The notes under the pieces: generated by a model
What the model saw: the letters and a program-made list of their open reading frames with translations, nothing else
Told to the model about the DNA's origin: nothing
The model's database searches: none
Program-made: the position numbers and the translations under genes
Part shown: positions 6,041-60,908 of the stretch, piece by piece
Layout: each line of letters begins with the position of its first letter
Position numbering within the stretch: the stretch's first letter is position 1
IMG/VR virus record: IMGVR_UViG_3300032334_002567
Coordinates: 1 to 64,000 of that record
Length of the DNA stretch: 64,000 bases
Direction: 5' to 3' (one strand)
DNA from: a virus

Positions 6041-6967
6041 ATGTCAATTAAAGAATACTTAAAAAATCGTAAAAATGAGTCTAAAGTATCGCTAGAAAAT
6101 TACAAACAAAGTTTGTATGAAAACTTGGCAATTTTTCTAGGCACAAAAGAAGAATCTTTAGATATAAAAGAAAACCTAATAAATGAAATAGAAATCAAGG
6201 AAGAGACCGATAAACTCGGCTATCCCAACAGTAATTCATTAGTTTTATCTTTAAAAACACAAGATATAAAAGAAGTTATATTAGAAAGAAACAAACTCTT
6301 ACAGTGGGCTCAAAAAAATGAAAAAGAAATCGAAAAAATAAAAAAGACGATGGCAGTTTATGAGTCGTACATGTTGTCTAAAGAGGTTACCCGCTATGTA
6401 ATAGAAAAACTAGTTGAGTCTTGCTTAGCCAAAACAGAAATGAAGATAAATGAATTATCTTTAAAAATAGATAATATAAAAAATAAAATAAAATGGCCAT
6501 TTAAAAATATTCTCATAGAAGCCATTTATCCTGCACAAGGGCTTTTAGCTGTAGAAGCGGATGTAAGTCTGGGAGAAGAGAATGTTCAAAAAGTATTCTC
6601 TATAAATTTAGAGACAAAAGAAATTGAGCTAAATGATGAAATGCCACAAAGAATAAAAAACAAATGTTCTGAACTTGTTAGCAACTTGAATGAAAGAAAA
6701 AAAGAAAAAGTTAAATTTATAAATCTCTACATGCCAATTTTAGCCGAGAATGAAAATAAAATATTAGAATCAAAAAAAGAGATTATACTCGGAATGAAAC
6801 AATACTTACCACATGGTACTAAACTAATGAAAGAGCCTATAGATCAAGAGGGGGCAACCATTTGGAAAGTTCGAATCAATGAAAACCAATTAAAAAAAGA
6901 TGGTGAAGAATACTTAGTAATAGCCGAAAGGGCAGAGTTATTCTGGGTGGGTAAGCATGAAAAATAA
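6041..6967 (+). CDS. Coiled-coil protein downstream of terminase, unknown
   Basis: About 308 aa and very rich in Lys, Glu and Asn. I chose ATG 6041, with GGATGG 4 nt upstream, over an in-frame ATG at 6029 that lies inside the terminase gene. Residues ~75-150 are predicted coiled coil (repeated LxxWAQKNEKEIEKIKK-type heptads), followed by a more globular C-terminal half. The tight coupling to terminase suggests a packaging or head-morphogenesis role, such as a small-terminase or scaffold analogue, but no family is recognised. Confidence 0.7.
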   Translation: MSIKEYLKNRKNESKVSLENYKQSLYENLAIFLGTKEESLDIKENLINEIEIKEETDKLGYPNSNSLVLSLKTQDIKEVILERNKLLQWAQKNEKEIEKIKKTMAVYESYMLSKEVTRYVIEKLVESCLAKTEMKINELSLKIDNIKNKIKWPFKNILIEAIYPAQGLLAVEADVSLGEENVQKVFSINLETKEIELNDEMPQRIKNKCSELVSNLNERKKEKVKFINLYMPILAENENKILESKKEIILGMKQYLPHGTKLMKEPIDQEGATIWKVRINENQLKKDGEEYLVIAERAELFWVGKHEK

Positions 6968-7259
6968 CACAAATAAAGCAAAAAATCTGTTAGAACAGGC
7001 ACTTTTTAATCTTCCTCAGGATTTTTCACTAGAAACAGCCAGAAGATCTATAAAAATTGCACTATCAGAAATAATACAAATAGAAAATAAACGTGAAAAA
7101 AGAAACACACTAAAAGAAAACAGAAAAGAAATTAAAAACAAATTAATGCCTTCATCTATTAAAATAATAGATGAATTAATTAAACAAGAAAACAAAAAAA
7201 TAGAAAATAATAAAAATAGAAAAGAAAGCGAAGATATAGAGATCAACATATCCGAATGA
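6957..7259 (+). CDS. Small Lys/Asn-rich helical protein
   Basis: 100 aa, with its ATG overlapping the end of the preceding gene and GGGTGG just upstream. It is almost entirely helical and highly charged (many Lys, Glu and Asn), with low-complexity sequence in the second half. It belongs to the terminase operon by overlap. No motif or family is recognised. Confidence 0.6.
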   Translation: MKNNTNKAKNLLEQALFNLPQDFSLETARRSIKIALSEIIQIENKREKRNTLKENRKEIKNKLMPSSIKIIDELIKQENKKIENNKNRKESEDIEINISE

Positions 7260-7270
7260 AAGAAGGAAAA

Positions 7271-7801
7271 ATGAAAAAAGATTGGCATGGAATAATCAAA
7301 ATACTAGAGATTCAGCATTTAAGAAACTCAAAAGTTATATGGGAAGAAAAAAATATAAATAATATTCTTCATAGCGAGGGAGAGAACTTTTTTTTAAAAT
7401 GCTGCTTTGTCAATGATGGTTCATATCCTCCGGGTAATTATTACTTTGGACTAGACAATAGGTCGTCTGTTACAGCAGGAGACCTAATAGAAGATCTTAC
7501 GGAAGAACCATCTCTAAGCGGATATAGCAGAGTTGCAGTTGATTCAACTAGTGGATTTACCATAGAAAAAGTTAATCAAGTTTATAGAGCTGCGGGTAGC
7601 ATAATAACTTTTTCTGCTATAGGCGGTTCTTGGGGACCGGTTAGAAATCTATTTTTAACCACAAGCATTAGTTCTACATCTGATAATTTGGCATCTAGTA
7701 TTTTACTTGCGTCTGCCCAGCTGTCCAGCAGCCTTACACTAACGGATGGTGACTCCGTAAACATGAGAATGGCTTTATCTTTACAAGATACAAACGGTTA
7801 G
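7271..7801 (+). CDS. Probable virion structural protein
   Basis: 176 aa from ATG 7271, which has AGAAGGA upstream; an ATG at 7256 is in frame but poorly placed. The pattern GSYPPGNYYFGLDNR, then a long Ser/Thr-rich beta domain ending NMRMALSLQDTNG, resembles small tail- or capsid-associated proteins in large phages. The same general style is seen in the virion-like gene at 34647. It is the last gene of the terminase operon and converges with the next gene by 4 bp. The exact virion position is unknown. Confidence 0.6.
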   Translation: MKKDWHGIIKILEIQHLRNSKVIWEEKNINNILHSEGENFFLKCCFVNDGSYPPGNYYFGLDNRSSVTAGDLIEDLTEEPSLSGYSRVAVDSTSGFTIEKVNQVYRAAGSIITFSAIGGSWGPVRNLFLTTSISSTSDNLASSILLASAQLSSSLTLTDGDSVNMRMALSLQDTNG

Positions 7802-8211
7802 TCTAAAGTATCAAGTAAAATTTCTATAGGTTTTATTTCTATAAAATGAACGACGCTTATATCTTTATTATTTCTATCAATTTTACTGTACTGACGGTAG
7901 GTTAATTCCTCACATCCTCCGTCCTCAACATCCAAAAGCTTTTTTGCAGTAGTAGAATTGTCTTTACCATAAAAAGTTTGTGGCAAATTTAATAAATAAC
8001 CTTCATCAGTTTGTATTATTGATTTAAAACTTAAGTTATTTGTAATTATATACTTACAAAAAACTTCTTGTGCCGGTTCACTAGTATCGCCTTTTCTGAA
8101 CCAAACTGGAACACTAATTCCTGTTGTTTCTAATCTTTCACCTCTAAAAAGAGCATATCTTTCTTCTCGGGTTAAATATATGTAATGAGATATGGTAAGA
8201 GTAGCAGCCAT
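7798..8211 (-). CDS. Hypothetical protein
   Basis: 137 aa, ATG 8211 with only a weak GGA-type ribosome binding site. It begins MAATLTISHYIYLTREERYALFRGER and ends with hydrophobic-acidic sequence. Beta-rich composition could fit a virion accessory protein. It converges with the virion-like gene by 4 bp. Nothing is recognised. Confidence 0.55.
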   Translation of the reverse strand: MAATLTISHYIYLTREERYALFRGERLETTGISVPVWFRKGDTSEPAQEVFCKYIITNNLSFKSIIQTDEGYLLNLPQTFYGKDNSTTAKKLLDVEDGGCEELTYRQYSKIDRNNKDISVVHFIEIKPIEILLDTLD

Positions 8212-25572: not shown

Positions 25573-26270
25573 ATCAGTATTTAGATTATTTCGATAATTA
25601 CGTTTGCAAGGGTTTAATGCCCATAGCAATTCATAAAGGCACAAAAGTGCCTGTAGCACAAAAATGGAATATTGGCTGGAGTGCAAGGAAATGGCGTCAT
25701 TTTTTTTATGATGAAGAACATGAATTAGGTTTATTATGGAATGGAAATATAGTAGACGTAGAAGCGGACGATGAAACTTCAAATGCTTTTTTAAATAAAT
25801 TAATAGGAAACATAGACAGACCAATATACAAAAGTCATAGATCACACCACAATCTATTCATTACACCTAATCCAAAACTTACTAAGGTAAATCTATATGG
25901 TTCAAGAGGAGAAAAGATAGAAATATTTGGCAAAAAAACATTTACAATGGCCCCGCCTTCTAACCATATAAAAGAAGGTATAAAGTATGAATTTATAAAT
26001 GATTTTTGGCCTCCACCAAAGTTCCCAAATGCACTTAAAAGTTTATATTTTCAACAAAAGAAAATTAAACTATTAAACAAGGAAAAGAAAGAAAGTACTT
26101 GCACTGACTGTGGTGTTGGCTATTGCCTACACAAAAAAAGACTTACTTTAGAAGTCCGATCTTTTATTTCATTGGGGCTAGGATGGAAATGTATCAAGTG
26201 CAGAAAAAACTATGATATAGATATAAAAGAAGAATGCAGGAAGTTAAGAAAAACTATTGAAAAAATTTAA
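25569..26270 (+). CDS. PrimPol-like (archaeo-eukaryotic primase superfamily) protein with zinc fingers
   Basis: 233 aa. The N-terminal ~160 residues match the bifunctional primase-polymerase domain: PIAIHKGTKVPV near 18-29, the metal-binding D63-V-E65 in IVDVEADD, a SHHNLF histidine element near 92-97, and MAPPSNH..G..YEF toward the end. The C-terminus adds a cysteine cluster (CTDC..GYC and CIKC) that probably binds zinc. It could prime replication or act in repair. It lacks the usual fused helicase. The window also has a TOPRIM primase, so the two may serve different steps. Confidence 0.65.
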   Translation: MNQYLDYFDNYVCKGLMPIAIHKGTKVPVAQKWNIGWSARKWRHFFYDEEHELGLLWNGNIVDVEADDETSNAFLNKLIGNIDRPIYKSHRSHHNLFITPNPKLTKVNLYGSRGEKIEIFGKKTFTMAPPSNHIKEGIKYEFINDFWPPPKFPNALKSLYFQQKKIKLLNKEKKESTCTDCGVGYCLHKKRLTLEVRSFISLGLGWKCIKCRKNYDIDIKEECRKLRKTIEKI

Positions 26271-26852
26271 TGCTTGTTCAATATCTTCATTATCAACGTA
26301 GTGACCACCCTCATTCTTTTCAAGAAAACTGACTATGAAAGAGTTTTCTATTAAAAATTCTTTCATGGGAATGAATCGCTCATCCCAACTAAAGCATTCA
26401 TCATCACTACAGTGGATAACAAGAACAGGTGTTGTGTTTGATGTAGAGAGCTTATTCATATCTAAAATAGCACCATTATGGCAAACTATGCCTTTAAATA
26501 TGTCATCTGTACTTAACAAAATTTGAAGAGCGACAACGGCACCAGCCGAAAAACCTGATATGAAAAGATTTGATTCATGTAAATCATAAACTTCCCTCAG
26601 CTTATTTATCATGTTTTTAAGACGTGGGATTGTGTCCCTAAGACCTAAAACTGCTTCTTCTTGATCTCCAGTACCATTTGGTATCGGATACCATTCAGAA
26701 TATGGTTCTACAGATATCAACCTGTAATGGTCACTCTTTTGATTGTTTTTATATGCCACCAATAAATCATAGACTGAGTTGCCTCTGCCAGAGAGAAGCA
26801 ATATTGTGCCTTTATAATCTTTGCTAGGCTCTTCTGTTAAAACGTGATACAT
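26244..26852 (-). CDS. Alpha/beta hydrolase (carboxylesterase/phospholipase-like)
   Basis: 202 aa with a GGGGGA ribosome binding site inside the preceding gene. The catalytic triad is visible: S102 in GFSAGA, D150 (or D151) in HCSDDE, and H184 in EGGHYV. This fits the Abhydrolase_2 esterase group. It is the third gene of a late operon behind an amidoligase, overlapping it by 29 bp. It may cleave an ester or amide linked to whatever the ligase builds; the substrate is unknown. No signal peptide, so it acts in the cytoplasm. Confidence 0.8.
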   Translation of the reverse strand: MYHVLTEEPSKDYKGTILLLSGRGNSVYDLLVAYKNNQKSDHYRLISVEPYSEWYPIPNGTGDQEEAVLGLRDTIPRLKNMINKLREVYDLHESNLFISGFSAGAVVALQILLSTDDIFKGIVCHNGAILDMNKLSTSNTTPVLVIHCSDDECFSWDERFIPMKEFLIENSFIVSFLEKNEGGHYVDNEDIEQALNFFNSFS

Positions 26853-27771
26853 TGTTTATCCCCCAAGCTGAGTAAGGGTCGGGTAGATATCTTTTTGAGC
26901 TTAACTTTTCAATAGAGTTTATTATTTCGTTTGGCAAATAATGACTAATAAAAGTCATAAACTTTTTGGCTAAGTCTATATCACATGAGTTTATACATTT
27001 CTTAAGCAGTTCTACATCATAACCAAAGCAGCAATAAGCCTTGCTTGGGTCCTCATCATCTAAAAATGAATCATCAACAGACCAAAATTTGTTATGAAGT
27101 TCATCTTGAACAAAATTCAAAACAAAATCACTCAAATCATATATCAAACCCATGTACTCCGGCGAAGCAAACCAAAAATTACCTAAAGACCTATATTCAA
27201 GCCCATAGTCCGTAACTCTGTGAGAACCAGCTTGTCCATAGACTTTTTTTCTTTTTTTTGTCATAGGGTCAACGTCTAAAAAGACTGCTGGGACGCCTAT
27301 AAATAAATCCATCATTCGAACTGTATTAAATATACTGAGTGGTTCACGTAAGAAACTGGCTCCTAGGTGAATATGACCACCAGCAGTTCTAAAAGGAGTT
27401 TTAGAAATAACTTCTTCTGGGGGTAGTATACATTGCAAACTATAGACATCCCATTCCGGGTTGCAGCCTGCTATCCTTGCCTCTTCATGCCTTAATTCTC
27501 TATCCGGATAGTCTTCGGCACAGCTTATATCAAACTTAATGGGATGAATAATTTCTGCTAAACGGGTTAATGATCTTTTGGTGTTTTCTATAAACTCTTG
27601 TTTGCTTTTGCCAGGCTTTATGGCTATTTCAGCAAGAACATTATCGTAATAAATAAAATTACCTTTAAAAGGAATTGCAGAGGTTTTTTTTGGCAATATT
27701 CCAATTGCACTTTTAGGGCAACTGTTGTTTGTTAGTATAAACTCTGGGTCGCTTCCAAATGTAAAACTCAT
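26824..27771 (-). CDS. phiEco32-type COOH.NH2 amidoligase
   Basis: 315 aa with the clear signature of the phage amidoligase family (glutamine-synthetase-like fold): GSDPEF at 6-11, GGHIHLG at 131-137, and YGQAGSHR...YGLEYRSLGNFWF at 178-201. These enzymes use ATP to join a carboxylate to an amine; family members were predicted to modify peptides or small metabolites, but the phage substrate is not known. It is co-directional with an unknown 259-aa gene 9 bp upstream and an overlapping hydrolase downstream. A class II glutamine amidotransferase, a common functional partner, lies at 45769. Confidence 0.85.
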   Translation of the reverse strand: MSFTFGSDPEFILTNNSCPKSAIGILPKKTSAIPFKGNFIYYDNVLAEIAIKPGKSKQEFIENTKRSLTRLAEIIHPIKFDISCAEDYPDRELRHEEARIAGCNPEWDVYSLQCILPPEEVISKTPFRTAGGHIHLGASFLREPLSIFNTVRMMDLFIGVPAVFLDVDPMTKKRKKVYGQAGSHRVTDYGLEYRSLGNFWFASPEYMGLIYDLSDFVLNFVQDELHNKFWSVDDSFLDDEDPSKAYCCFGYDVELLKKCINSCDIDLAKKFMTFISHYLPNEIINSIEKLSSKRYLPDPYSAWGINNVSRFNRRA

Positions 27772-27780
27772 TCATTCACC

Positions 27781-28560
27781 TCATTTAAATTCATGCCAAG
27801 ATGGGACCGCAACAGGACTGCCTTGTGATTTGAGATTTATGTCTCCAGCAAATCCCATGATACCCAAGCGATTGTGTACGGTGTCCATCACCATATTGCT
27901 TGGGTAATTTTCTTTTATTCTTTTAGAGAATATCTTTTTATCGCCTAGTCTCAAGATTTTATCTAGAGCTTGTTGCGTATCTTGCAGCCATCTTTTATCA
28001 AATTTTTGATAAGGCTTGATTACACCTAGTTTTATACCTTCTATAGTAGAATAAAAAGGACAGCCTATATTATGTGAAAGGCCTACCCTTAACAACAAAG
28101 AGTATAAAGAAAGCATAGGTGGAGCATTTAGCCACCTTTTATTTGCCTCAAATAAAAATATACCATTTTTTTCATAACCAATTGGAGGATTAGAACACTT
28201 ACGAACCTTGGTTCTCTTTATTGTCAGCCTATCCTCTATTTGATTTATAAAATCTAAACAATCTATAATTTTAGAAGAAAACTTTTTATCTTTAGGGTTT
28301 GAAAGCAGTATTCTTAGGCTTTTTAAGCAAGGTTTAGGGCTTGTATTTGGATCGTATCTAAATTTATATATCTCAAAAGACCTATTGTTGATACAAGAAT
28401 AGACAACATCATGAAGAAAGTCTTTGCACCAAACGAAATCATGACATTGCTCAAAGTCGTCAGAAACCAAAGCGTATTCTAGACCTTTAGAATAAACCTG
28501 CAGAATTTTTTGTGTTAGAGGAGTTTTTTTCCATTTAATTTTTCGTTTATAGACGCTCAT
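27781..28560 (-). CDS. Unknown protein heading the amidoligase operon
   Basis: 259 aa, basic, mixed alpha/beta, with seven or more Cys scattered through it. No recognised domain. It precedes the amidoligase by 9 bp, and a perfect T4-type late box TATAAATA lies 23 nt before its ATG. Tight linkage suggests it is the amidoligase partner, either substrate carrier or delivery protein. Confidence 0.6.
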   Translation of the reverse strand: MSVYKRKIKWKKTPLTQKILQVYSKGLEYALVSDDFEQCHDFVWCKDFLHDVVYSCINNRSFEIYKFRYDPNTSPKPCLKSLRILLSNPKDKKFSSKIIDCLDFINQIEDRLTIKRTKVRKCSNPPIGYEKNGIFLFEANKRWLNAPPMLSLYSLLLRVGLSHNIGCPFYSTIEGIKLGVIKPYQKFDKRWLQDTQQALDKILRLGDKKIFSKRIKENYPSNMVMDTVHNRLGIMGFAGDINLKSQGSPVAVPSWHEFK

Positions 28561-28583
28561 TTTTGGTCCTTCGAAAAGCCCTC

Positions 28584-28591
28584 TATTTATA
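28584..28591 (-). promoter_or_regulatory. T4-type late promoter TATAAATA
   Basis: On the minus strand the sequence is exactly TATAAATA, the T4 late consensus, 23 nt upstream of the first gene of the amidoligase operon. This predicts expression with the virion genes. Confidence 0.55.
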
Positions 28592-28922: not shown

Positions 28923-30686
28923 ATGACACCAATAGAATTATCTCCTACAGATACACCAACTCCAACACCAACGGATACTCCACCTACAGATACTCCTACT
29001 CCTACTCCTACTCCTACTCCAACACCAACGGATACTCCACCTACAGATACACCAACCCCAACACCAATTCCACCTACAGATACTCCTACTCCAACACCAA
29101 TTCCACCTACAGATACACCAACTCCAACACCAATTCCACCTACAGATACTCCAACTCCAACACCAATTCCACCAACAGATACTCCTACTCCAACTCCAAC
29201 GCCAATTCCACCAACAGATACTCCTACTCCAACTCCAACACCAATTCCACCAACAGATACTCCTACTCCAACACCAATCCCACCAACAGATACTCCTACT
29301 CCAACACCTACCAATACACCTACCAATACACCCACCAATACACCTACCAATACACCTACCAATACACCCACCAATACACCTACCAATACACCCACCAATA
29401 CACCTACCAATACACCTACCAATACACCTACCCCTACTCCAACTCCTGCTCCTCAATTAATTAAATCAGGAGAAATTGTTCTTCTACTTTCTGGTTCGGG
29501 TGTTACCAGTCCAGGTCAGTCTTTGGGTGGAGAACCTTCTAATACTTTTGTGTCTCAGAGACTTTTTTCAGATATATCTGCTGATCAGGCACAAGAAGGC
29601 AAGACAGACTACAGATGCATATACGTTAGCAATGCAAGTAACGAAGGAACTCTTTATGGTGCAAAAGTTTATATACTTTACAAAGAAACAAGTGACGTAA
29701 CAGTAAATTTGGGATTCGTGGCTAGAAATGAAGTTCAACAGATAATAATATCAAAAGTAAAATCCATATGCAGTGGTACTTTTAAAATAATATACACAGA
29801 CACTTATTTAGGAAATATACGACAACAAGTTACATCAGAAATAGATCTATTCACAGAAGCCGGTGAAGCAAAAAGCATTGAAGAGATATCTTCTTCTATA
29901 AAAGAAAAACTCTCAGAACTAAATGGTTTAGAAACTGTTAATTCTATTGATTCAATATCAGTAGGTGGAAGCCAAGATGTAGGCGAAGAACAAAACGTTG
30001 TAAACGAAAATAGTCAAACAAATTCGGGAAGTTCAAGTATTTCAGAATTCACTCTCAGACATTCCCCTATAACTAGTAATTCTATATCAGGAACAATATA
30101 CTTAAATAGCAACCCAATACAAACATTCGTAATGCAGGAATCCGGAACAAGCGGTGAATGTGGAATAAACTATAATTTAATCTTTACAAGTATAGGTTCT
30201 CAAGCAATAAAAGCAACTAGTGGAACAATAAATCTAACAAGTGGAAATTTGACTTTAAATTGGAACAATAGTTCTCCTGGTGTTAACTACGTACGGACTA
30301 ATTACACCTATAAAAACACTACCTTTACTTTTAATATAACTTTTCAAGGACAAGTAGGAAATCGTTTTAATGATGAATTGGCTGTTAGTGATGTTAATCT
30401 TGATTCAATAGAAAGTCCTACAATTCAAACATATAGATTGTTTTCAGGAGGACCTGTTAATACAGAAGCAGATATCATAGACGTAGAAACAACTACGCCA
30501 AATGGTGTAGAATTTTGTAGAAATACAAGTTGCTCAAGTGAAGGGTACGATAACGCTTTTTATCTAGGAGATCTACATCCTTTAGATGTAGCTCCTATTT
30601 GGATAGAAAGAATAGCACCAGCAGATTCAAACGCTATTGAAAATGATGGATTTACTTTAAAAATTGACGGCACAACTTCGAGATAG
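28923..30686 (+). CDS. Fibre-like protein with a ~165-residue Thr-Pro stalk
   Basis: 587 aa. Residues ~8-177 are a Thr-Pro stalk in three flavours: [17 protein letters not shown] and PTNT repeats. The rest (~178-587) is a beta-rich, Asn/Ser/Thr-rich domain set with few charged residues, typical of adhesins. It shares the stalk type with the LamG protein at the left edge. A tail fibre, capsid fibre or baseplate spike are all possible. No Shine-Dalgarno sequence precedes the ATG. Confidence 0.65.
28950..29448. repeat. Low-complexity Thr-Pro coding repeats (6-, 12- and 30-bp-scale units)
   Basis: The stretch is nested: CCTACT/CCAACA hexamers, longer [11 protein letters not shown] units recurring about every 30-36 bp, and near 29305-29430 about eleven copies of a 12-bp CCTACCAATACA unit with single-base C/T variation. 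All unit sizes are multiples of three, so the frame is kept when copies are gained or lost. Confidence 0.9.
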
Positions 30687-30693
30687 GTGAAAA

Positions 30694-30996
30694 ATGGAAT
30701 TCTGTCCTTTGAATAATAAAAATTGTGAAAAAGAAAAAATTATAAATATAATACAACTTAAAAAAGGAAAAATAAAAGAAATAAACGTCTGTAATGATTG
30801 TGTTTGTGATTATGCAGAAAATAATTTGTTAGATGATATTGGGCCTCTAAAAAACCTAGTAGAAACAATAGAAGAAAGCCCAGAATATAAACTGAGTAAT
30901 CTAAAAAACAAAATGGCTGCTGCTATAGAAATTGAAGACTATGAAGCAGCAGCCATTATCAAGAAAAAGATTGAAGATTTGACTAAAAAATCTTGA
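30694..30996 (+). CDS. McsA-like zinc and UVR-motif protein
   Basis: 100 aa. The N-terminus has a cysteine set (C4, C10, and CNDCVC near 33-38) that probably binds zinc. Residues ~66-97 are a UVR motif (KMAAAIEIEDYEAAAIIKKKIEDL in outline), the helical hairpin of UvrB, UvrC and McsA. McsA activates an arginine kinase in Gram-positive bacteria; here no kinase is seen. It may be a protein adaptor for a protease or repair enzyme. It converges with the subtilisin gene by 14 bp. Confidence 0.72.
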   Translation: MEFCPLNNKNCEKEKIINIIQLKKGKIKEINVCNDCVCDYAENNLLDDIGPLKNLVETIEESPEYKLSNLKNKMAAAIEIEDYEAAAIIKKKIEDLTKKS

Positions 30997-31912
30997 CCCA
31001 TTCTTCCATTTTTCTGGGATCAATTATACCAAAACCTTCAAAGGCATGTTGGCCAGCAAATTGATTTGTAGATATTGTGTATTTCTTTAAAAAGTTTATA
31101 TAATCTTGAGCATTATTTAACTTTAGATCTAAACCCTTCTTCCTCTTGTAAGAAAGTAATAAACAACCTATACCAACAGCGAATGGATTAGCCATGCTGG
31201 TGCCAGAAAGTATTGCGTACCAATTTTTTGGAACCGTACTGAGTATTTTGACTCCCGGTGCTAGAAAGTCTAAATCAGGGCCTGTGCAGCTAAAACTAGC
31301 ACGATCAAAGCTCTCGTTTATGGCTCCTATTCCTATGGTTTCTGGATGGGCTGCTGGGTAAAAGATATTATGAGTCTTTCCCGCATTTCCAGCAGCACAC
31401 CAGACTACAACTCCTTTGGAAGATGCATACTTGATGGCATCGTGAAGAATTTTAGATGGATTAGGAGAACCTAAAGACATAGTTATAAAATCTACACCTT
31501 GATCCGCTGCCCAGATCACTCCATTTGAAACATCAGAAAGTTTTCCAGAACCTTTATTGTCTAAAACCTTAACAGGAACGACCTTTGTTTTTGGAGCTAC
31601 GCCTACAACACCTAGTTTGTTATTTGAGGCACATATAGTGCCCGTTACGTGGCTACCATGTCCTTGATCATCTTGAGGAGGCAACTTAGGATTAACAAAG
31701 TTTTTACCGGGAAGCAAATTATCAACTAGATCTTCATGTTCAAGATCAGCTCCTGTATCTAATACAGCTACAGTAACTCCTTCACCTTGAGTCCACTCCC
31801 AAGTTTTGGGAAGATTAAAAGCAGTTATTTCCCAACCAATTTTCTGTTCTACGTCTTGTACACTTAGAACCTCTTCTCTTTCATGAGGCAGTAGTTTTAT
31901 TCTTTTTGTCAT
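30983..31912 (-). CDS. Subtilisin-like (S8) serine protease, intracellular type
   Basis: 309 aa from ATG 31912, with GGAGGA just upstream. The complete S8 triad is present: D52 in AVLDTGADLEH, H85 in GHGSHV and S239 in SGTSMANP; the oxyanion Asn is in AAGNAG (N176). No signal peptide and only a short N-terminal extension, as in intracellular subtilisins. It may process virion or host proteins in the cytoplasm. It is translationally coupled to the membrane protein upstream (ATATGA overlap). Confidence 0.9.
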   Translation of the reverse strand: MTKRIKLLPHEREEVLSVQDVEQKIGWEITAFNLPKTWEWTQGEGVTVAVLDTGADLEHEDLVDNLLPGKNFVNPKLPPQDDQGHGSHVTGTICASNNKLGVVGVAPKTKVVPVKVLDNKGSGKLSDVSNGVIWAADQGVDFITMSLGSPNPSKILHDAIKYASSKGVVVWCAAGNAGKTHNIFYPAAHPETIGIGAINESFDRASFSCTGPDLDFLAPGVKILSTVPKNWYAILSGTSMANPFAVGIGCLLLSYKRKKGLDLKLNNAQDYINFLKKYTISTNQFAGQHAFEGFGIIDPRKMEEWVKIF

Positions 31913-32319
31913 ATTCCTCCTTGATTTGCAGTCACTCTCCAAGATCCATCACGATATTTAGAAACTATAAATTCAATTAATTGGCTCACTATAACACCTA
32001 CAATTATTTGTTTTACTACTGGTGTCAATGGTATCAGCCAAGCCGGAAAACTATTAGTAGCTACATAGTCAAAAATTTTAGAGATAACCAGTAGTACTAC
32101 GGCTTTCTTATCAGATCCTTTAGGTATGTTTTCTTGTACAAATAAAATTAAGTCATCTAAAGCACAGATTAAAAACTTAGTACACTCAGCAATTTGAGTT
32201 TGGTGGATCGTAAACCAAGATTTTTTTGGTGGGGCAGTTTCATCCCATTTTGTCTTCAAGTCTTCTAGATAAAAATCAAGCTTGAGCAAGACATCTTTAT
32301 CAATGTTTTCTACATTCAT
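31909..32319 (-). CDS. Membrane-associated hypothetical protein
   Basis: 136 aa from ATG 32319, spaced 5 nt from AGGAGG; a GTG two codons upstream is also in frame. The N-terminal half is charged and helical, and the C-terminal half has hydrophobic segments around residues 68-85 and 92-118. It could be a membrane anchor, a holin-like protein or a partner of the coupled subtilisin. No family is recognised. Confidence 0.6.
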   Translation of the reverse strand: MNVENIDKDVLLKLDFYLEDLKTKWDETAPPKKSWFTIHQTQIAECTKFLICALDDLILFVQENIPKGSDKKAVVLLVISKIFDYVATNSFPAWLIPLTPVVKQIIVGVIVSQLIEFIVSKYRDGSWRVTANQGGI

Positions 32320-32363
32320 AGACACCTCCTTTTGTCTATTGTATATATGAAAATTAAAGCCAA

Positions 32364-44713: not shown

Positions 44714-45757
44714 ATGAAAGTTGAAAGCGAAATAAAGCTAGATTTCAACGATGTGTTAATAAAGCCAAAAAGAAGTAGTCTCGAAAGCAGATCTCAAGTA
44801 GACCTGAATAGAGAATACAAATTTAGAAATTCTTCCATAAAAATTGAGGTTGGTGTGCCTCTCGTAGCAGCCAACATGGATACAATTGCTACGTTTGAAA
44901 TGGCCCGAGCTTTGTCAAAAAGAAACATATGGACAGCCTTACATAAATTTTACTCTATCAATGAGATTGAAAAATTTTTTAAAGAAGAAGCAGACGTAGC
45001 TTCTAAGTGCTTTTATTCTCTAGGAATAAATGAAGATGATTTTGATAAGATAAAAAAACTTCAAGGATTAGGTGTAAAGCTTCCGTTCATTTGTGTTGAC
45101 GTTGCAAACGGCTATAGCCAAAAGTTCGTAAATGAATGTGGTTATTTAAGAAAGCTATTCCCAAATGCAGTAATATTGGCTGGGAACGTATGTACACCAG
45201 AAATGGTACAAGAGCTACTGATTTCGGGCGGAGTGGACATAATTAAAGTAGGGATAGGTGGTGGAAGTGGATGTATCACTAGGCATACAACGGGCATAGG
45301 ATTTCCACAACTTAGTGCCGTAATAGAATGCGGCGATGCTGCTCATGGTCTAGGCGGGCATATCTGCTCTGATGGTGGTTGTAGGGCTCCTGGCGACATA
45401 GCCAAAGCATTTGCTGCTGGTGCTGACTTTGTGATGATGGGAGGCATGTTAGCGGGGCATGATGAATGTGGAGGTGAATTTAAACTAAATGAAAATGGCG
45501 AAAGAAAATCCATGTGTTTTTATGGAATGAGCTCTGAGCTTGCTATGAAAAAATACTATGGAGGCAAAGCTAGCTATAGAGCAAGTGAAGGAAGAGTAAT
45601 AGAAGTCCCCTATAAAGGCCATGTAGATCAGACTATAGAACAAATATTGGGTGGGTTAAGAAGCACTTGCACTTATGTTGGTACAGATAAATTAAAAGAC
45701 TTATCAAAGTGCACTACATTTATAAGAGTGAATAGAGTACACGATAATATGAATTAA
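44714..45757 (+). CDS. guaC: GMP reductase
   Basis: 347 aa, the same length as E. coli GuaC, and similar along its whole length. The catalytic loop reads GIGGGSGCITRHTTG, with the conserved Cys but Gly where E. coli has Pro and Val. The phosphate-site motif SDGGCRAPGD and the GGMLAGHDECGGE segment follow. It reduces GMP to IMP with NADPH, steering purines away from guanine and releasing ammonia. A phage-borne copy may rebalance purine pools for its own DNA. The flap residues AEYRAAEG-like (ASYRASEG) are intact. Confidence 0.92.
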   Translation: MKVESEIKLDFNDVLIKPKRSSLESRSQVDLNREYKFRNSSIKIEVGVPLVAANMDTIATFEMARALSKRNIWTALHKFYSINEIEKFFKEEADVASKCFYSLGINEDDFDKIKKLQGLGVKLPFICVDVANGYSQKFVNECGYLRKLFPNAVILAGNVCTPEMVQELLISGGVDIIKVGIGGGSGCITRHTTGIGFPQLSAVIECGDAAHGLGGHICSDGGCRAPGDIAKAFAAGADFVMMGGMLAGHDECGGEFKLNENGERKSMCFYGMSSELAMKKYYGGKASYRASEGRVIEVPYKGHVDQTIEQILGGLRSTCTYVGTDKLKDLSKCTTFIRVNRVHDNMN

Positions 45758-45768
45758 GAGGTGAAAAT

Positions 45769-46911
45769 ATTTGTGGAATAGCAGGTTTTATAGGTTTATC
45801 TAAAAAACCTATCTTTAGTTACCAGCTTACAACTAAACTATTTGAAATAAGTGAATCCAGAGGAATTGATGCCGCAGGATTTTGGGCCGTGCGTCCTGAT
45901 GGTGGCGTTATATACCATAAAAAACCCATTAGATCATCTAGGTTTGTAAAGAGAGATGAATGGAGGGATGTTTTTAAATATAATCCTAATTTATTATTAG
46001 CACACGCAAGAGGAGCTTCTAAAGGTGTAGGAGAGCCTATGTTTAATAAAAACAATCATCCTTTCACAAGCTTAGACAAGTCTATTGGTCTTATCCACAA
46101 TGGCAGGGTAGAAGACTCTGAGTATCGGTCTTTAAAAAAAGCATATGAAGTATCAAGTGATTGCGATTCTGAAGTTATCCTTAGAATAATAGAAGCTGGC
46201 TCGCACTATCATCCGCATGAGATTACAGAGTTTATAAATCTGGATTATCCAAATAGATTAGCAGGGATTAGGGACGTTTATTCCTTTATAAACTCTGGTC
46301 ATTTAGCTGTGGCTGTGGGTGAGAGGAATGACGAAAACAATAGATCCCTGTGGCTTTTTAGAAACGCTTATAGACCTCTTTGGATTGTGGATATGCGTGA
46401 GCTACTAGGACAAATATTCTTTGTCTCAGAGCCGGGAATATGGGAGGAGTCAATAAATGAATGTCCTTCTATTAGAGGACATTCTAAATTTCAAAAATTA
46501 ATAGAGTTGCCACCGGAAGAAGTTTGGTTGATAGAATCAACAAAAGAAGAACCAACTCCAAATAAAATAAAAAAATACAAAGTTTCTAAAAGCAAAGAAA
46601 TAAGTGCTAATGAAATAAACAAATATTTTCCATTGATAGAAAAGCAGCCGTCGTTTGAAGTAATAAGCACAATAAGCGAAGAAAAAGAAACCCACCAATT
46701 TTTCGAAAATAATGATTGGGAAGAATTAGAATTAAAAGAGCTTGAAAGTAAATGCAACAAAGTTTCAGAAACTGTTCAAGAAATTAAAAATTGGGTAAAA
46801 GAAAAAACTACAAAACAGTCTATAGGCAAGGACGAAATAGATAGAATCTCTAATTTAATGAATAATCAAATCGATGATATGAACAAAATAGTTTCAATAC
46901 TGGAGAATTAG
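45769..46911 (+). CDS. Class II glutamine amidotransferase (GAT-II) with an ATT start
   Basis: 380 aa. There is no ATG; reading from ATT 45769 (5 nt after GAGGTG) gives fMet-C2-G-I-A-G-F, placing the nucleophile Cys exactly where the Ntn hydrolase family needs it. Other active-site motifs: AHARGA (H79, R81), IHNG (N111, G112) and CDSE (D133). GAT-II domains release ammonia from glutamine for a partner synthetase. The C-terminal ~160 residues are helical and coiled-coil-like, not a known synthetase, so the acceptor enzyme must be separate; the amidoligase at 26824 is a candidate. Starting at the first in-frame GTG (45889) would delete the active site. Confidence 0.85.
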   Translation: MCGIAGFIGLSKKPIFSYQLTTKLFEISESRGIDAAGFWAVRPDGGVIYHKKPIRSSRFVKRDEWRDVFKYNPNLLLAHARGASKGVGEPMFNKNNHPFTSLDKSIGLIHNGRVEDSEYRSLKKAYEVSSDCDSEVILRIIEAGSHYHPHEITEFINLDYPNRLAGIRDVYSFINSGHLAVAVGERNDENNRSLWLFRNAYRPLWIVDMRELLGQIFFVSEPGIWEESINECPSIRGHSKFQKLIELPPEEVWLIESTKEEPTPNKIKKYKVSKSKEISANEINKYFPLIEKQPSFEVISTISEEKETHQFFENNDWEELELKELESKCNKVSETVQEIKNWVKEKTTKQSIGKDEIDRISNLMNNQIDDMNKIVSILEN

Positions 46912-56633: not shown

Positions 56634-56930
56634 ATGGAAAAAGAAGAAAAAGAAGAGATTATAAAGTTTGAGAATAGAAAGACTTTTGAAGTCAAAATGA
56701 GACCTGCCAATGGAGGGGGAATAGAAAAAGCAATTTTTATAGATGGTGAACTACTAGATTGGCAAGTAGATATAAACTCTTTGGTAGATGCTATGAAAAT
56801 GGGGCCACAGTACATGAGAGAAATTCAAAGGGACATAGAAAAGCACTTTGTAGAATCTGTGTCTGATACTGTTGGAAGAAAAGTCACAGCAGAAGATATT
56901 AAACAAGCAATTAAAGTTGGATATATCTGA
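56634..56930 (+). CDS. Hypothetical protein
   Basis: 98 aa with a GGAGG ribosome binding site. A basic N-terminus is followed by an alpha/beta region and a C-terminal helix (SDTVGRKVTAEDIKQAIKVG) reminiscent of short histone-like or NAP contacts, without a match I trust. It lies 1 bp before the aminotransferase ATG, so it is coupled to it. Confidence 0.55.
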   Translation: MEKEEKEEIIKFENRKTFEVKMRPANGGGIEKAIFIDGELLDWQVDINSLVDAMKMGPQYMREIQRDIEKHFVESVSDTVGRKVTAEDIKQAIKVGYI

Positions 56931-56931
56931 T

Positions 56932-58206
56932 ATGAGTATGGTACATGATATACTGTGTAAACACACTATAGGCGATGGAGAAAAAATCGTCATAGACCCA
57001 GTTAAAAGCAATGGTGTGTATCTTGTAGACTTAATTGATGGAAAAAAATACCTAGACTGTTCAAGTCAATATGCCAGCATGGCTCTTGGTTGGAATAATC
57101 CAACATTAAAAAAATACCTAGAAGAAAACAAAGAAAGTCTAAATTTCTGTAATTTGCATAAAATTGCAAACTGTGATTTTTACACAACAGTGTATGCAGA
57201 ATTTGTAAGCAAGTTTTCTGAAATTACAAGTGATTTCAAACATTTGTTTTTTGTAGAAGGTGGAACTTTAGGTGTAGAAAACGCAATAAAAGCAGCCTTT
57301 GATTGGAAAGCTAAGAAACTCGGGCTGACTCATAAAGCTTCTAATTCTATAGTTAACAAGTTCGATGTTATACATTTACAGCAGGCGTTTCATGGAAGAA
57401 GCGGATATTGTTTGTCTATAACTAACACAATAGCAAACAAAGTTTCATTGTTCCCAAAGTTTAATTGGACAAGAATAAAAAATCCAAAGTTAGAATTTCC
57501 TATCGTTGAAAGCAAAGTCGCAATAGATGAAGAGCTAAGCTTGTTGCAGGCCGAAAATGCTCTGAAATCGAATAATGTGGCTGCAATAGTTCTGGAAACC
57601 ATTCAAGGTGAAGGAGGTGATAATCACTTTAGAACAGAATATTTCAAAGCTTTGCGTAAACTTGCAGATCAATATGAGGCATTACTTATATTGGACGAGG
57701 TTCAAACTGGTGTTGGACTTACGGGTAAAATGTGGGCTTACCAACATTCTGGGATAATCCCAGATATAATAGCTTTTGGAAAAAAGACACAAGTTTGCGG
57801 CTTTGCTTCCACCGATAGGATTGATGAAGTTTCTGATAATGTTTTTCGTGAATCAAGTAGAATAAGTTCTACTTGGGGCGGTAATATAATTGATATGTAC
57901 AGATTTACTCAAATAATAGAAATATTACAAGAACAAAGATTGGTTGATAATGCCAAAGAAGTGGGCGAATATTTTTTAAATAAACTTTATGAAGTAAAAA
58001 ATATAAAGAATGTTAGGGGCAAAGGATTAATGATTGCCTTTGATCTAAATACAACCCAAGAAAGAAATGAAGTTCTAAAAAAGCTTCAGTCAGATATGGC
58101 TATATTGCCTTGTGGAGAAAAGTCAATTCGTTTAAGGCCACATCTCATCTTCTCTAAAGATAATGTAGATGAAGCCATATATTATATAAATAAATCTGTT
58201 TCTTAA
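56932..58206 (+). CDS. lat: L-lysine 6-aminotransferase
   Basis: 424 aa from ATG 56932, the first in-frame ATG after the previous stop. Class III aminotransferase with L-lysine epsilon-transaminase features: the AFHGRSGYC loop (152-160), LETIQGEGGD (221-230), D255/E256 in LDEVQTG, and the PLP lysine in AFGKKTQVCG (K284/K285), characteristic of Lat. It converts lysine and 2-oxoglutarate to allysine and glutamate. The same phage carries glutamate dehydrogenase nearby, which would recycle the glutamate. The ribosome binding site is weak. Confidence 0.85.
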   Translation: MSMVHDILCKHTIGDGEKIVIDPVKSNGVYLVDLIDGKKYLDCSSQYASMALGWNNPTLKKYLEENKESLNFCNLHKIANCDFYTTVYAEFVSKFSEITSDFKHLFFVEGGTLGVENAIKAAFDWKAKKLGLTHKASNSIVNKFDVIHLQQAFHGRSGYCLSITNTIANKVSLFPKFNWTRIKNPKLEFPIVESKVAIDEELSLLQAENALKSNNVAAIVLETIQGEGGDNHFRTEYFKALRKLADQYEALLILDEVQTGVGLTGKMWAYQHSGIIPDIIAFGKKTQVCGFASTDRIDEVSDNVFRESSRISSTWGGNIIDMYRFTQIIEILQEQRLVDNAKEVGEYFLNKLYEVKNIKNVRGKGLMIAFDLNTTQERNEVLKKLQSDMAILPCGEKSIRLRPHLIFSKDNVDEAIYYINKSVS

Positions 58207-59568
58207 TCAACCAAACCAAGTAAATTTGTTATCTTTACCACGACCTAATATGGAATTTAAAAATTCTTGGTCTGGTATGTTGTGATCTCCATACACGCCA
58301 CCTGTAGGATTGCCTCCCGAACTTACGTCTGAGCTGTAGTTGATGTTAGGAGGGGCAACATCTGAACTGCCTGTTCCAAAAGGCTCTTTTCTCTTTGTGA
58401 ATGAACCCTTTTCTCTAAGAGGCGGAGCTTTTAATGGCTTGTTTTTTCCTACATATTGATATGTTGCATGATCTGCTGCAGCTGAGTCTGGGCCCATGTC
58501 TGATACGCTTCCTGTTTGAGGACCAGCACCAACAAAAGACTGATAACTTTCTGGAGGCTGTTGTGCTGATTGTGTATTTTGTGGTGTTTGATTTCCCATA
58601 TTTCCTAATTTATCAACTACAGCATTTAAAGTCTTGGTAAAATCTTGATTAACATTAGTATTGCCTAGTTTAGACTGTAAATCACGTAGTGCAGACATTG
58701 CAAGAGTTATAGACTGCAGATCTCTTTCAGCGTCTACTCCAGCTTGTCTTTGTTGTCCAGCCTTGCCCCAATTTGACCAAGCAGATTTTACATTGGCCCA
58801 TTGATTGCCTATCCAATCACCTGCTTTTTGCAACCAATTCTCTGAGTAATTATCTACATACCACTCTGTGAAAGCTACAATATCTATTCCTTGATTTTGC
58901 AATTCAAATAGTTGCTTTTTTATTTCTAGGTCTTCATCAAAAAACTCTGTTTGAACAGATTCATCTAAACTATTTTTAAGTAAACCAATTAAATTAATTA
59001 TATTTTTATGAAACTCTGGATCTGCTACTTTATTTTGTAGATCTTTTGAAACCCCTAACCTTTTGGACAAAGTATCTAATGCATGTCTGGCAACCGCTTG
59101 GGATTTTTGAAGGGGTGTCATTTGTGGTTGTGGTTGTCCATTAGTAGTTGTAGAACCTTGCTGTGCTTGGGCTTGGTTTTGATTTTGTTGTGGTTGATCT
59201 CCTATGACACCCTTTGTAAAACTATCTCCGGCTCCTTTTGCAGAACTTGCCCAAGAACCGATTCTTTTGGCTAAACCTTGTGCTGCTGAGCCTAGGGCAC
59301 TTCCCATATATTCTGCACTTGCTGATGGCTTTTCTACAGAAGAACCGGCTGAGTAACCTTGACTGGCTCTGTTAGCCAAACCTGCTGCTGTCGGGAACCA
59401 TTTGTTCAAAAATTCATTTAAAATAAGTTTATCTTCAAATTGACCATCTTCAACATACCAATTGATGAATTTTTCTGGGTCTATACCCTTGTCTGCCATT
59501 ATAACCAGTGCTTGTTCTAGCAATTTAATGTTTTTGGTGATTCTAAGACTTTCAGAAAAACTTCTCAT
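58207..59568 (-). CDS. Structural-like protein with duplicated N-terminal domain
   Basis: 453 aa from ATG 59568, with TTAGGAG upstream. Two ~55-residue segments share a pattern: L...A.QGID...F..WYV, at residues ~28-75 and again at ~222-275 (GIDPEKFINWYVED, GIDIVAFTEWYVDN). These are separated by a long Ala/Ser/Gln-rich, low-charge linker. The C-terminal ~120 residues are Gly/Ser/Pro-rich. The start MRSFSESLRIT is a partial match to the targeting peptide. Likely a virion or core protein. Confidence 0.6.
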   Translation of the reverse strand: MRSFSESLRITKNIKLLEQALVIMADKGIDPEKFINWYVEDGQFEDKLILNEFLNKWFPTAAGLANRASQGYSAGSSVEKPSASAEYMGSALGSAAQGLAKRIGSWASSAKGAGDSFTKGVIGDQPQQNQNQAQAQQGSTTTNGQPQPQMTPLQKSQAVARHALDTLSKRLGVSKDLQNKVADPEFHKNIINLIGLLKNSLDESVQTEFFDEDLEIKKQLFELQNQGIDIVAFTEWYVDNYSENWLQKAGDWIGNQWANVKSAWSNWGKAGQQRQAGVDAERDLQSITLAMSALRDLQSKLGNTNVNQDFTKTLNAVVDKLGNMGNQTPQNTQSAQQPPESYQSFVGAGPQTGSVSDMGPDSAAADHATYQYVGKNKPLKAPPLREKGSFTKRKEPFGTGSSDVAPPNINYSSDVSSGGNPTGGVYGDHNIPDQEFLNSILGRGKDNKFTWFG

Positions 59569-59648
59569 ACTTTCTCCTAAATTATTCAAAATATCTCTCT
59601 TTTATATAGAGAAGACCTGTATTTTTTACCAATAACCAAGGAAATAAC

Positions 59649-60908
59649 ATGACAATGCTCCAAGAAGCTAAAAAACAACTAGAAGCAGCGTATGGGTTTG
59701 CACAAATAGACAAAGAAAGCTGGGAGCGTCTTCAATATCCACAAAAAACACTACAAGTCTCTATCCCAATACGTCACGATGATGGCACCTTAAAGGTTTA
59801 CCAGGCGTACAGATGCCAGTATGACAGCACACTTGGGCCATATAAAGGAGGGATAAGATATCATCCAAATGTAGATCGTGATCACTGTGAGGCTCTTGCT
59901 TTTTGGATGACTTTTAAATGTGGTTGTTTAAAACTTCCTTACGGAGGTGCAAAAGGTGGTATAAGTGTAGATGCAACAAAATTATCGCACAGAGAGCTAG
60001 AAAGAATCAGCAAGGCATATATTGCTTCAATAATGGACTTTATAGGCCCCGATTCAGATATACCTGCTCCTGATCTTTACACAGATGAAAGAATAATGGG
60101 ATGGATGTATTCTGAGTACAAAAGAATCAAAGGAGGCCATCCAAAAGACATTATAACCGGCAAGCCAGTGGCGTTAGGAGGAATAGAAGGAAGAAGCTCC
60201 GCTACAGGTCACGGTGGTTATTATGTTTTAGAAAATATTTTGAAAAGCAATGTGAAAGATATTTCAACTAATCCAGAAGATATTAAAATAGCAATACAAG
60301 GTTTCGGCAAAGTAGGTTACTGGCTTGCAGAGAAGTGCTTTAGATCAGGTATGAGAGTAGTGGCAGTTACGAACGAATTTGGTGGAGTTTATAACAAGAA
60401 TGGATTAAATATAATTTCTTGTAAAAAATGTATAGAAAATAGCTCTGGACAAGAGTGGGGTGAAGGAGAAAAAATTACAAATGAAGAAATTTGGGATTTA
60501 GATGTAGACGTAATTGCTCCTTCTGCGGTGGAAAATGTGATTACTAAAGATATAGCATCTAAGATTAAAGCTAAAATAGTTTTAGAAATGGCTAATGGAC
60601 CAACTACAAATGAAGGGGATGCAATTTTAAATGATCGTGATATTTTAGTTGTCCCAGATATATTGGCAAATGGCGGAGGAGTAGTTGTTAGCTATTTTGA
60701 ATGGCTCCAGAACAGAAATGCTATTACAAGGTCCTTAGAAAAAGTGGAAGCAGACCTAAAAGAAATGATGGTCTATGCAACAGAAAGAGTTTTAGGGTTA
60801 CACACAAAACACAATATACCAGCAAGAACTGCTGCTTATGTTTTAGCACTCAAAAGAATAAACGATTCAAATGTTTGTTTAGGAATAAAAGACTACTTTC
60901 AAAAATAA
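59649..60908 (+). CDS. gdhA: Glutamate dehydrogenase
   Basis: 419 aa, full length for the hexameric family. Substrate residues are conserved: K66 in GPYKGGIRYHP, K90 and K102 in LPYGGAKGG, and D142 in PAPDLYTD. The cofactor domain has the GFGKVG dinucleotide loop near residue 217, and the NGPTTNEG and ANGGGVVVSYFEW segments fit bacterial/archaeal GDH. It interconverts glutamate and 2-oxoglutarate plus ammonia. GDH is very unusual on a phage. The start has AAGGAAATAAC ahead. It diverges from the virion-like gene, and its 3' end overlaps a convergent gene by 10 bp. Confidence 0.93.
   Translation: MTMLQEAKKQLEAAYGFAQIDKESWERLQYPQKTLQVSIPIRHDDGTLKVYQAYRCQYDSTLGPYKGGIRYHPNVDRDHCEALAFWMTFKCGCLKLPYGGAKGGISVDATKLSHRELERISKAYIASIMDFIGPDSDIPAPDLYTDERIMGWMYSEYKRIKGGHPKDIITGKPVALGGIEGRSSATGHGGYYVLENILKSNVKDISTNPEDIKIAIQGFGKVGYWLAEKCFRSGMRVVAVTNEFGGVYNKNGLNIISCKKCIENSSGQEWGEGEKITNEEIWDLDVDVIAPSAVENVITKDIASKIKAKIVLEMANGPTTNEGDAILNDRDILVVPDILANGGGVVVSYFEWLQNRNAITRSLEKVEADLKEMMVYATERVLGLHTKHNIPARTAAYVLALKRINDSNVCLGIKDYFQK

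Follow-up and report, generated by a model that had tools for sequence, protein, structure and literature searches.

Three open reading frames abut on the minus strand of the window, meaning here the whole stretch of 64,000 bases that was analysed, which is itself part of a virus record of 381,443 bases. The first encodes a protein of 259 amino acids (u259; 27781–28560) and stands before a gene for a GS-like COOH-NH2 ligase of 315 amino acids (26824–27771; PF14395, phiEco32 type), recognised with Pfam and PHROG profiles, while the third encodes an alpha/beta hydrolase of 202 amino acids (26244–26852), recognised with the Pfam profile PF02230 and carrying an S102-D151-H184 triad. The u259 and ligase genes are separated by 9 bases and the ligase and hydrolase genes overlap by 29 bases; place and strand are as the original prediction had described them. 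An AAGGA motif is found 5' of u259 and a GAGGTG motif 5' of the ligase. The genome also encodes a T4-type large terminase, a primase, SbcCD and a ribonucleotide reductase, a content which, in a record of this length, identifies the source as a tailed phage of the jumbo class. Its terminase has its nearest named counterpart (49%) in a 595-kb uncultured phage.

The surroundings of the trio hold several further genes. A small Prim-Pol-like protein (PF09250, 25569–26270) is encoded convergently with the trio and is syntenic in relatives. At 28923–30686 there is a gene for a protein with a long Pro-Thr (PTPTDTP/NTPT) repeat, and the two long antisense ORFs lying over it are apparent repeat artefacts. 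A subtilase (mycosin-like, S8) at 30983–32325, with a small conserved gene upstream of it, shows 66–73% identity across all nine closest relatives, which exceeds the conservation of the trio.

The three genes had been presented as a late operon following an exact TATAAATA box. The exact copy is indeed present at 28584–28591 on the minus strand; as evidence it is weak, since the window holds 12 copies where 7.8 ± 2.7 are expected and 8 of 100 shuffles reach 12, and the box precedes only two of the approximately 70 window genes. In the 80 bases upstream of u259 an exact copy is missing from all 22 relatives examined, and 4 of the 22 have a copy there with at most one mismatch, compared with 11.7% of random stretches. 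Given that the box is neither clearly enriched nor kept in relatives, a T4-type late promoter was rejected as evidence of timing; the "late" label falls with it, and a late-promoter function for the copy before u259 is unsupported.

The original prediction proposed looking for the same trio in other phage genomes. A u259 query of IMG/VR returned nine contigs at 54–61% identity, all nine with the ligase and hydrolase in the same order, and profiles of u259 and of the ligase then extended this set to 39 distinct IMG/VR contigs. Order and strand of u259–ligase–hydrolase were kept in 25 of these 39; the others carried u259–ligase (2), ligase–hydrolase (3), the ligase alone (7, one interrupted) or u259 paralogs otherwise arranged (2). 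Searches of IMG/VR for close relatives gave no match with the ligase alone or with the hydrolase alone, and alignment-based searches with either succeeded. An independent search seeded with the hydrolase found the ligase directly upstream in 34 of 34 contigs and the whole trio in 31 of them, these contigs being mostly shared with the set of 39. The trio is retained even where the identity of the ligase falls to 36–45%. Recurrence of order and strand at this frequency is far beyond chance: the three genes are one conserved unit, and the outcome that would have spoken against the prediction, genes lying apart in all relatives, was not what was found. In one contig (L061:6001–8232; IMGVR_UViG_3300032249_001461) an ORF on the opposite strand (6705–7865) interrupts the ligase gene and matches the Cas12f1-like/TnpB domain (PF07282), an IS605-type TnpB insertion within a phage amidoligase gene.

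The assignment of the second gene to the phiEco32-type amidoligases holds, with a score of 44.2 bits against PF14395 (cut-off 25) and an E-value of 1.6e-44 against phrog_3815; residues D8, E10, D43, E48, H133, E192 and R194 are invariant in 34 sequences. The best 50 PDB fold matches of its AF2 model (pLDDT 95.3) all belong to the GS/GCL/Dop superfamily and include glutamine synthetases and their homologs, glutamate-cysteine ligases, bifunctional glutathione synthetases, gamma-glutamylmethylamide synthetase, YbdK and Dop. The E-values of these matches are weak, from approximately 1.1e-3 at best to 5e-2 with TM scores of 0.3–0.5, but the matches agree strongly with one another. By computation, then, the ligase is predicted to fold like glutamine synthetase and glutamate-cysteine ligase, and it keeps a set of conserved polar residues. 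The likeness to solved GS, GCL, YbdK and Dop members is one of predicted fold, with no detectable sequence similarity and approximately 10% identity in structural alignment. Families of the GS/glutamate-cysteine ligase type join an ATP-activated carboxylate, mostly the gamma-carboxyl of glutamate, to an amine, and the phage ligase would be expected to perform the same ATP-dependent joining; we infer the type of its substrate from the fold relatives and the neighbouring genes only.

The hydrolase scored 53 bits against PF02230 (cut-off 23), and its profile matches solved carboxylesterases at E 1e-13. As had been predicted, its Ser-Asp-His triad is intact, S102, D151 and H184 being invariant in 22 sequences. 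It shares fold family and these residues with the PF02230 phospholipase/carboxylesterases (e.g., 4fhz, 5dwd, 2h1i) and differs from them in motifs of its own, EWYPxPxGxxDQ (partly shared with 4fhz) and DDxCFxWxERYLP. No relative of it was detected among 50,697 named phages. Identity with h200, the gene of approximately 200 amino acids that follows the ligase in classical phage amidoligase cassettes, was considered and rejected as no relation was detected.

What the hydrolase may do is suggested by what replaces it. In two bins (L091, L092) the order is u259–ligase–Peptidase_C26, with C26 at the hydrolase position and its GICRGxQ, HHQ and HPE motifs (Cys/His/Glu) intact, the u259 match in L091 being weak (E 2.6e-4) and its gene apparently truncated. 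Five further u259-family cassettes (L025, L026, L076, L077, L095) have C26 and no alpha/beta hydrolase, and L025 and L026 carry GGACT too. Gamma-glutamyl amides are cleaved both by Peptidase_C26, the gamma-glutamyl-hydrolase family (PuuD-like), and by GGACT enzymes; the PF02230 family is known chiefly for esterases and thioesterases. The simplest inference, from shared position and the chemistry of C26 and GGACT, is that the alpha/beta hydrolase stands in functionally for C26 and cuts or proof-reads the ligase product. The earlier idea that the hydrolase trims the product gains indirect support from the finding of C26 at the same position in two contigs, which is a shared position and not a shared activity. 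C26 matches of 530–594 amino acids in relatives were left out of account, their size being that of CTP synthase. A separate region of the window (44714–46911) encodes a phage GMP reductase (above its curated cut-off) followed by a GATase_6 protein; the latter is present in all seven trio-clade records tested and in several trio-clade records adjoins a C26 protein of CTP-synthase size, an arrangement suggestive of chemistry on nucleotides or bases.

The first gene proved the most difficult to place. u259 matched no Pfam or PHROG family above noise, and its AF2 model, although predicted with high confidence (pLDDT 94.6), had no fold match in the PDB. Against BFVD it matched one uncharacterised phage protein (1.9e-6), and amidoligases appeared at ranks 2, 4 and 45, all non-significant (E ≥ 0.16). 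A YpsA/SLOG assignment was rejected, the match scoring 17.6 bits against a cut-off of 27.7, spanning only 35 residues and occurring in one of nine members. Profile–profile comparison of u259 with amidoligase_2, the ligase, h200 and the 300-amino-acid genes upstream in classical cassettes gave no signal; as the ligase and amidoligase_2 also give none, a common fold is still conceivable.

Searches of genomic context were more informative. u259 had no match among the 50,697 named phages, and tblastn against them gave two weak matches (E 0.08 and 0.3), both within amidoligase cassettes and both confirmed by an iterated u259 profile at round one (E 6e-14 and 9e-17). A u259 pattern search of species-representative genomes did not find the gene, and a ligase search of the same genomes led to bins carrying u259-like genes. 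Family members are found within the amidoligase cassettes of unrelated phages (ctOsX528, Leptolyngbya phage Lbo-JY46, ctwe8250 and the contigs L025, L026 and L095) and also in bins L092 and L094; the genome of the window itself has a diverged member in its 161-kb region (L071:8680–9324), 2.3 kb downstream of an Amidoligase_2 gene. Tandem, diverging paralogs occur as four copies in L026 and two each in L025, L077, L092 and L094. In L026 (4973–12285) the four paralogs lie in one locus with a ligase, ATP-grasp, C26 and GGACT.

Across 38 members of the u259 family, Cys45 is invariant (38/38) in a C-[KR]-[DE] motif, with W143 present in 37, R158 in 36 and E109 in 35, the W and R positions in the most distant members depending on the alignment. 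Recurrence in amidoligase cassettes together with these conserved residues marks u259 as a recurring partner of phage COOH-NH2 ligases. Computation thus supports u259 as a recurring component of phage amidoligase cassettes, and judging from its conserved residues it may well be catalytic. A bolder reading, which we consider rather unlikely, is that u259, with its invariant cysteine, represents a new family of enzymes or adaptors that would be a general second subunit of phage COOH-NH2 ligases, possibly as a highly diverged amidoligase-fold protein, and so would define a new two-component gamma-glutamyl transfer system with exchangeable hydrolases.

Taking the three proteins together, it is reasonably probable that the trio is a compact offshoot, in jumbo phages, of the phage COOH-NH2 ligase (amidoligase) systems, and that it produces and trims an amide of the gamma-glutamyl type. 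The ligase would couple an ATP-activated carboxylate to an amine, and by analogy with its structural relatives that carboxylate would most likely be the gamma-carboxyl of glutamate or of a glutamyl residue. Through its invariant Cys and other fixed polar residues u259 would work with the ligase, either choosing the acceptor or performing a coupled step. The hydrolase, in the place which C26 gamma-glutamyl hydrolase has in sister cassettes, would cleave or proof-read the amide, or an ester or thioester form of the product. Elsewhere the same genome encodes two enzymes of the Amidoligase_2 family, together with a glutamine amidotransferase and a gamma-glutamyl cyclotransferase. Candidate targets would be, in order, the peptides of host peptidoglycan, as proposed for small phages, followed by free amino acids or amines, or proteins. 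Within this overall reading peptidoglycan is a tentative choice, held at somewhat less than even confidence, and small gamma-glutamyl compounds would fit the C26 and GGACT neighbours and a recurring pair of metabolic genes described below. Proteins are possible targets given that Dop is a close fold relative of the ligase; nothing points to virion proteins, on which amide-linked modifications had been envisaged.

The alternative that survives best, although we regard it as doubtful, is that the ligase is a metabolic enzyme of the Puu or GMAS type, gamma-glutamylating free amino acids or amines for glutamate and lysine metabolism during infection, with the hydrolase releasing them. The best fold matches of the ligase include gamma-glutamylmethylamide synthetase and GS, and the window encodes at 56872–60908 a lysine-6-transaminase-like enzyme (LAT; 503 bits against a cut-off of 521) and an archaeal-type glutamate dehydrogenase (GDH), which recur in trio-bearing phages. 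GDH was found in five of nine trio-bearing records and LAT in three; the two form a pair in G001, G004 and G010, approximately 10–20 kb from the trio in G001 and G010, and GDH occurs without LAT in G002 and G015. However, LAT and GDH lie approximately 28 kb from the trio in the window, several trio-bearing records (possibly fragments) are without them, and neither Puu-type nor GMAS pathways contain anything that corresponds to u259.

It is also conceivable, but distinctly unlikely, that the trio modifies a host or phage protein by attaching or taking off a gamma-glutamyl-type amide in the manner of Pup ligase and Dop; u259 would then serve as the substrate or an adaptor, and the hydrolase would erase the modification. 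Among the best fold matches of the ligase are Dop structures, and the tandem u259 paralogs, which diverge within L026, L025, L077, L092 and L094, would fit adaptors or substrates. Against this, GS and glutamate-cysteine ligases match the fold equally well, nothing resembling a small substrate of the Pup kind was seen next to the trio, and neighbouring C26 and gamma-glutamyl cyclotransferase genes are a better fit to small gamma-glutamyl compounds. That the three genes are merely neighbours in a conserved genome block without joint function is most improbable, for although the surrounding subtilase, HTH, Prim-Pol-like and epimerase genes are also syntenic in close relatives, the trio outlasts the divergence of its ligase noted above, and u259 accompanies the ligase into unrelated small-phage cassettes where the surroundings are quite different.

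Our preferred reading, that of a compact amidoligase branch, matters in that amidoligase cassettes are annotated in many phages while neither their chemistry nor their target is demonstrated in the literature that we found. The trio is the smallest conserved unit observed among the cassettes compared, and it names u259 as the partner that recurs across differing cassettes. It would also indicate a testable chemistry, a gamma-glutamyl-type amide from a GS-fold ligase with an exchangeable hydrolase, and its three small genes offer a practical system for learning the products of phage COOH-NH2 ligases.

Phage amidoligase cassettes with the same ligase family, such as those of phiEco32, LUZ24-like UFV-P2 (ORF21–29), PSA-HP1 (ORF40–47) and RIO-1, have been described as a peptidoglycan-modification module (PMC3890496, PMC5498523, PMC11945000), and a role in modifying the cell wall against superinfection has been proposed for them (PMC5498523, PMC10580990, PMC11945000). 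The module was thus partly nameable where the original prediction could give it no name, the ligase family being known from these cassettes. In classical cassettes (phiEco32 type, LUZ24/UFV-P2, PSA-HP1 and Zobellviridae) the ligase, h200, amidoligase_2, GATase, ATP-grasp and GGCT are found together. The window ligase belongs to the same PF14395 family and is 25–37% identical to members, but at its locus it stands only with u259 and the alpha/beta hydrolase; h200 is absent, and of the contiguous ligase–h200–amidoligase_2–GATase–ATP-grasp–GGCT series the ligase alone is present. Amidoligase_2, GATase and gamma-glutamyl cyclotransferase genes are present in the genome but scattered tens of kb away, with Amidoligase_2 (PF12224) at 97 and 161 kb, GATase_6 at 46 kb and GGACT at 197 kb, and no match to an ATP-grasp partner was found in this genome. 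An ATP-grasp match in another contig, G009 (L089; G009:127083–128045), contains one in-frame TAA. As the cassette enzymes are scattered and ATP-grasp was not found, we class the trio as a related branch of such systems and not as a member of the cassette. The closest parallels among named phages are Podoviridae sp. ctOsX528 (MW202697) and ctwe8250 (MW202615), in which u259-family genes likewise occur with the ligase. Their copies lie at the end of a cassette with amidoligase_2, GATase and ATP-grasp genes, ctOsX528 having two after C26–ligase–amidoligase_2–GATase–ATP-grasp, whereas the u259 gene of the window precedes the ligase.
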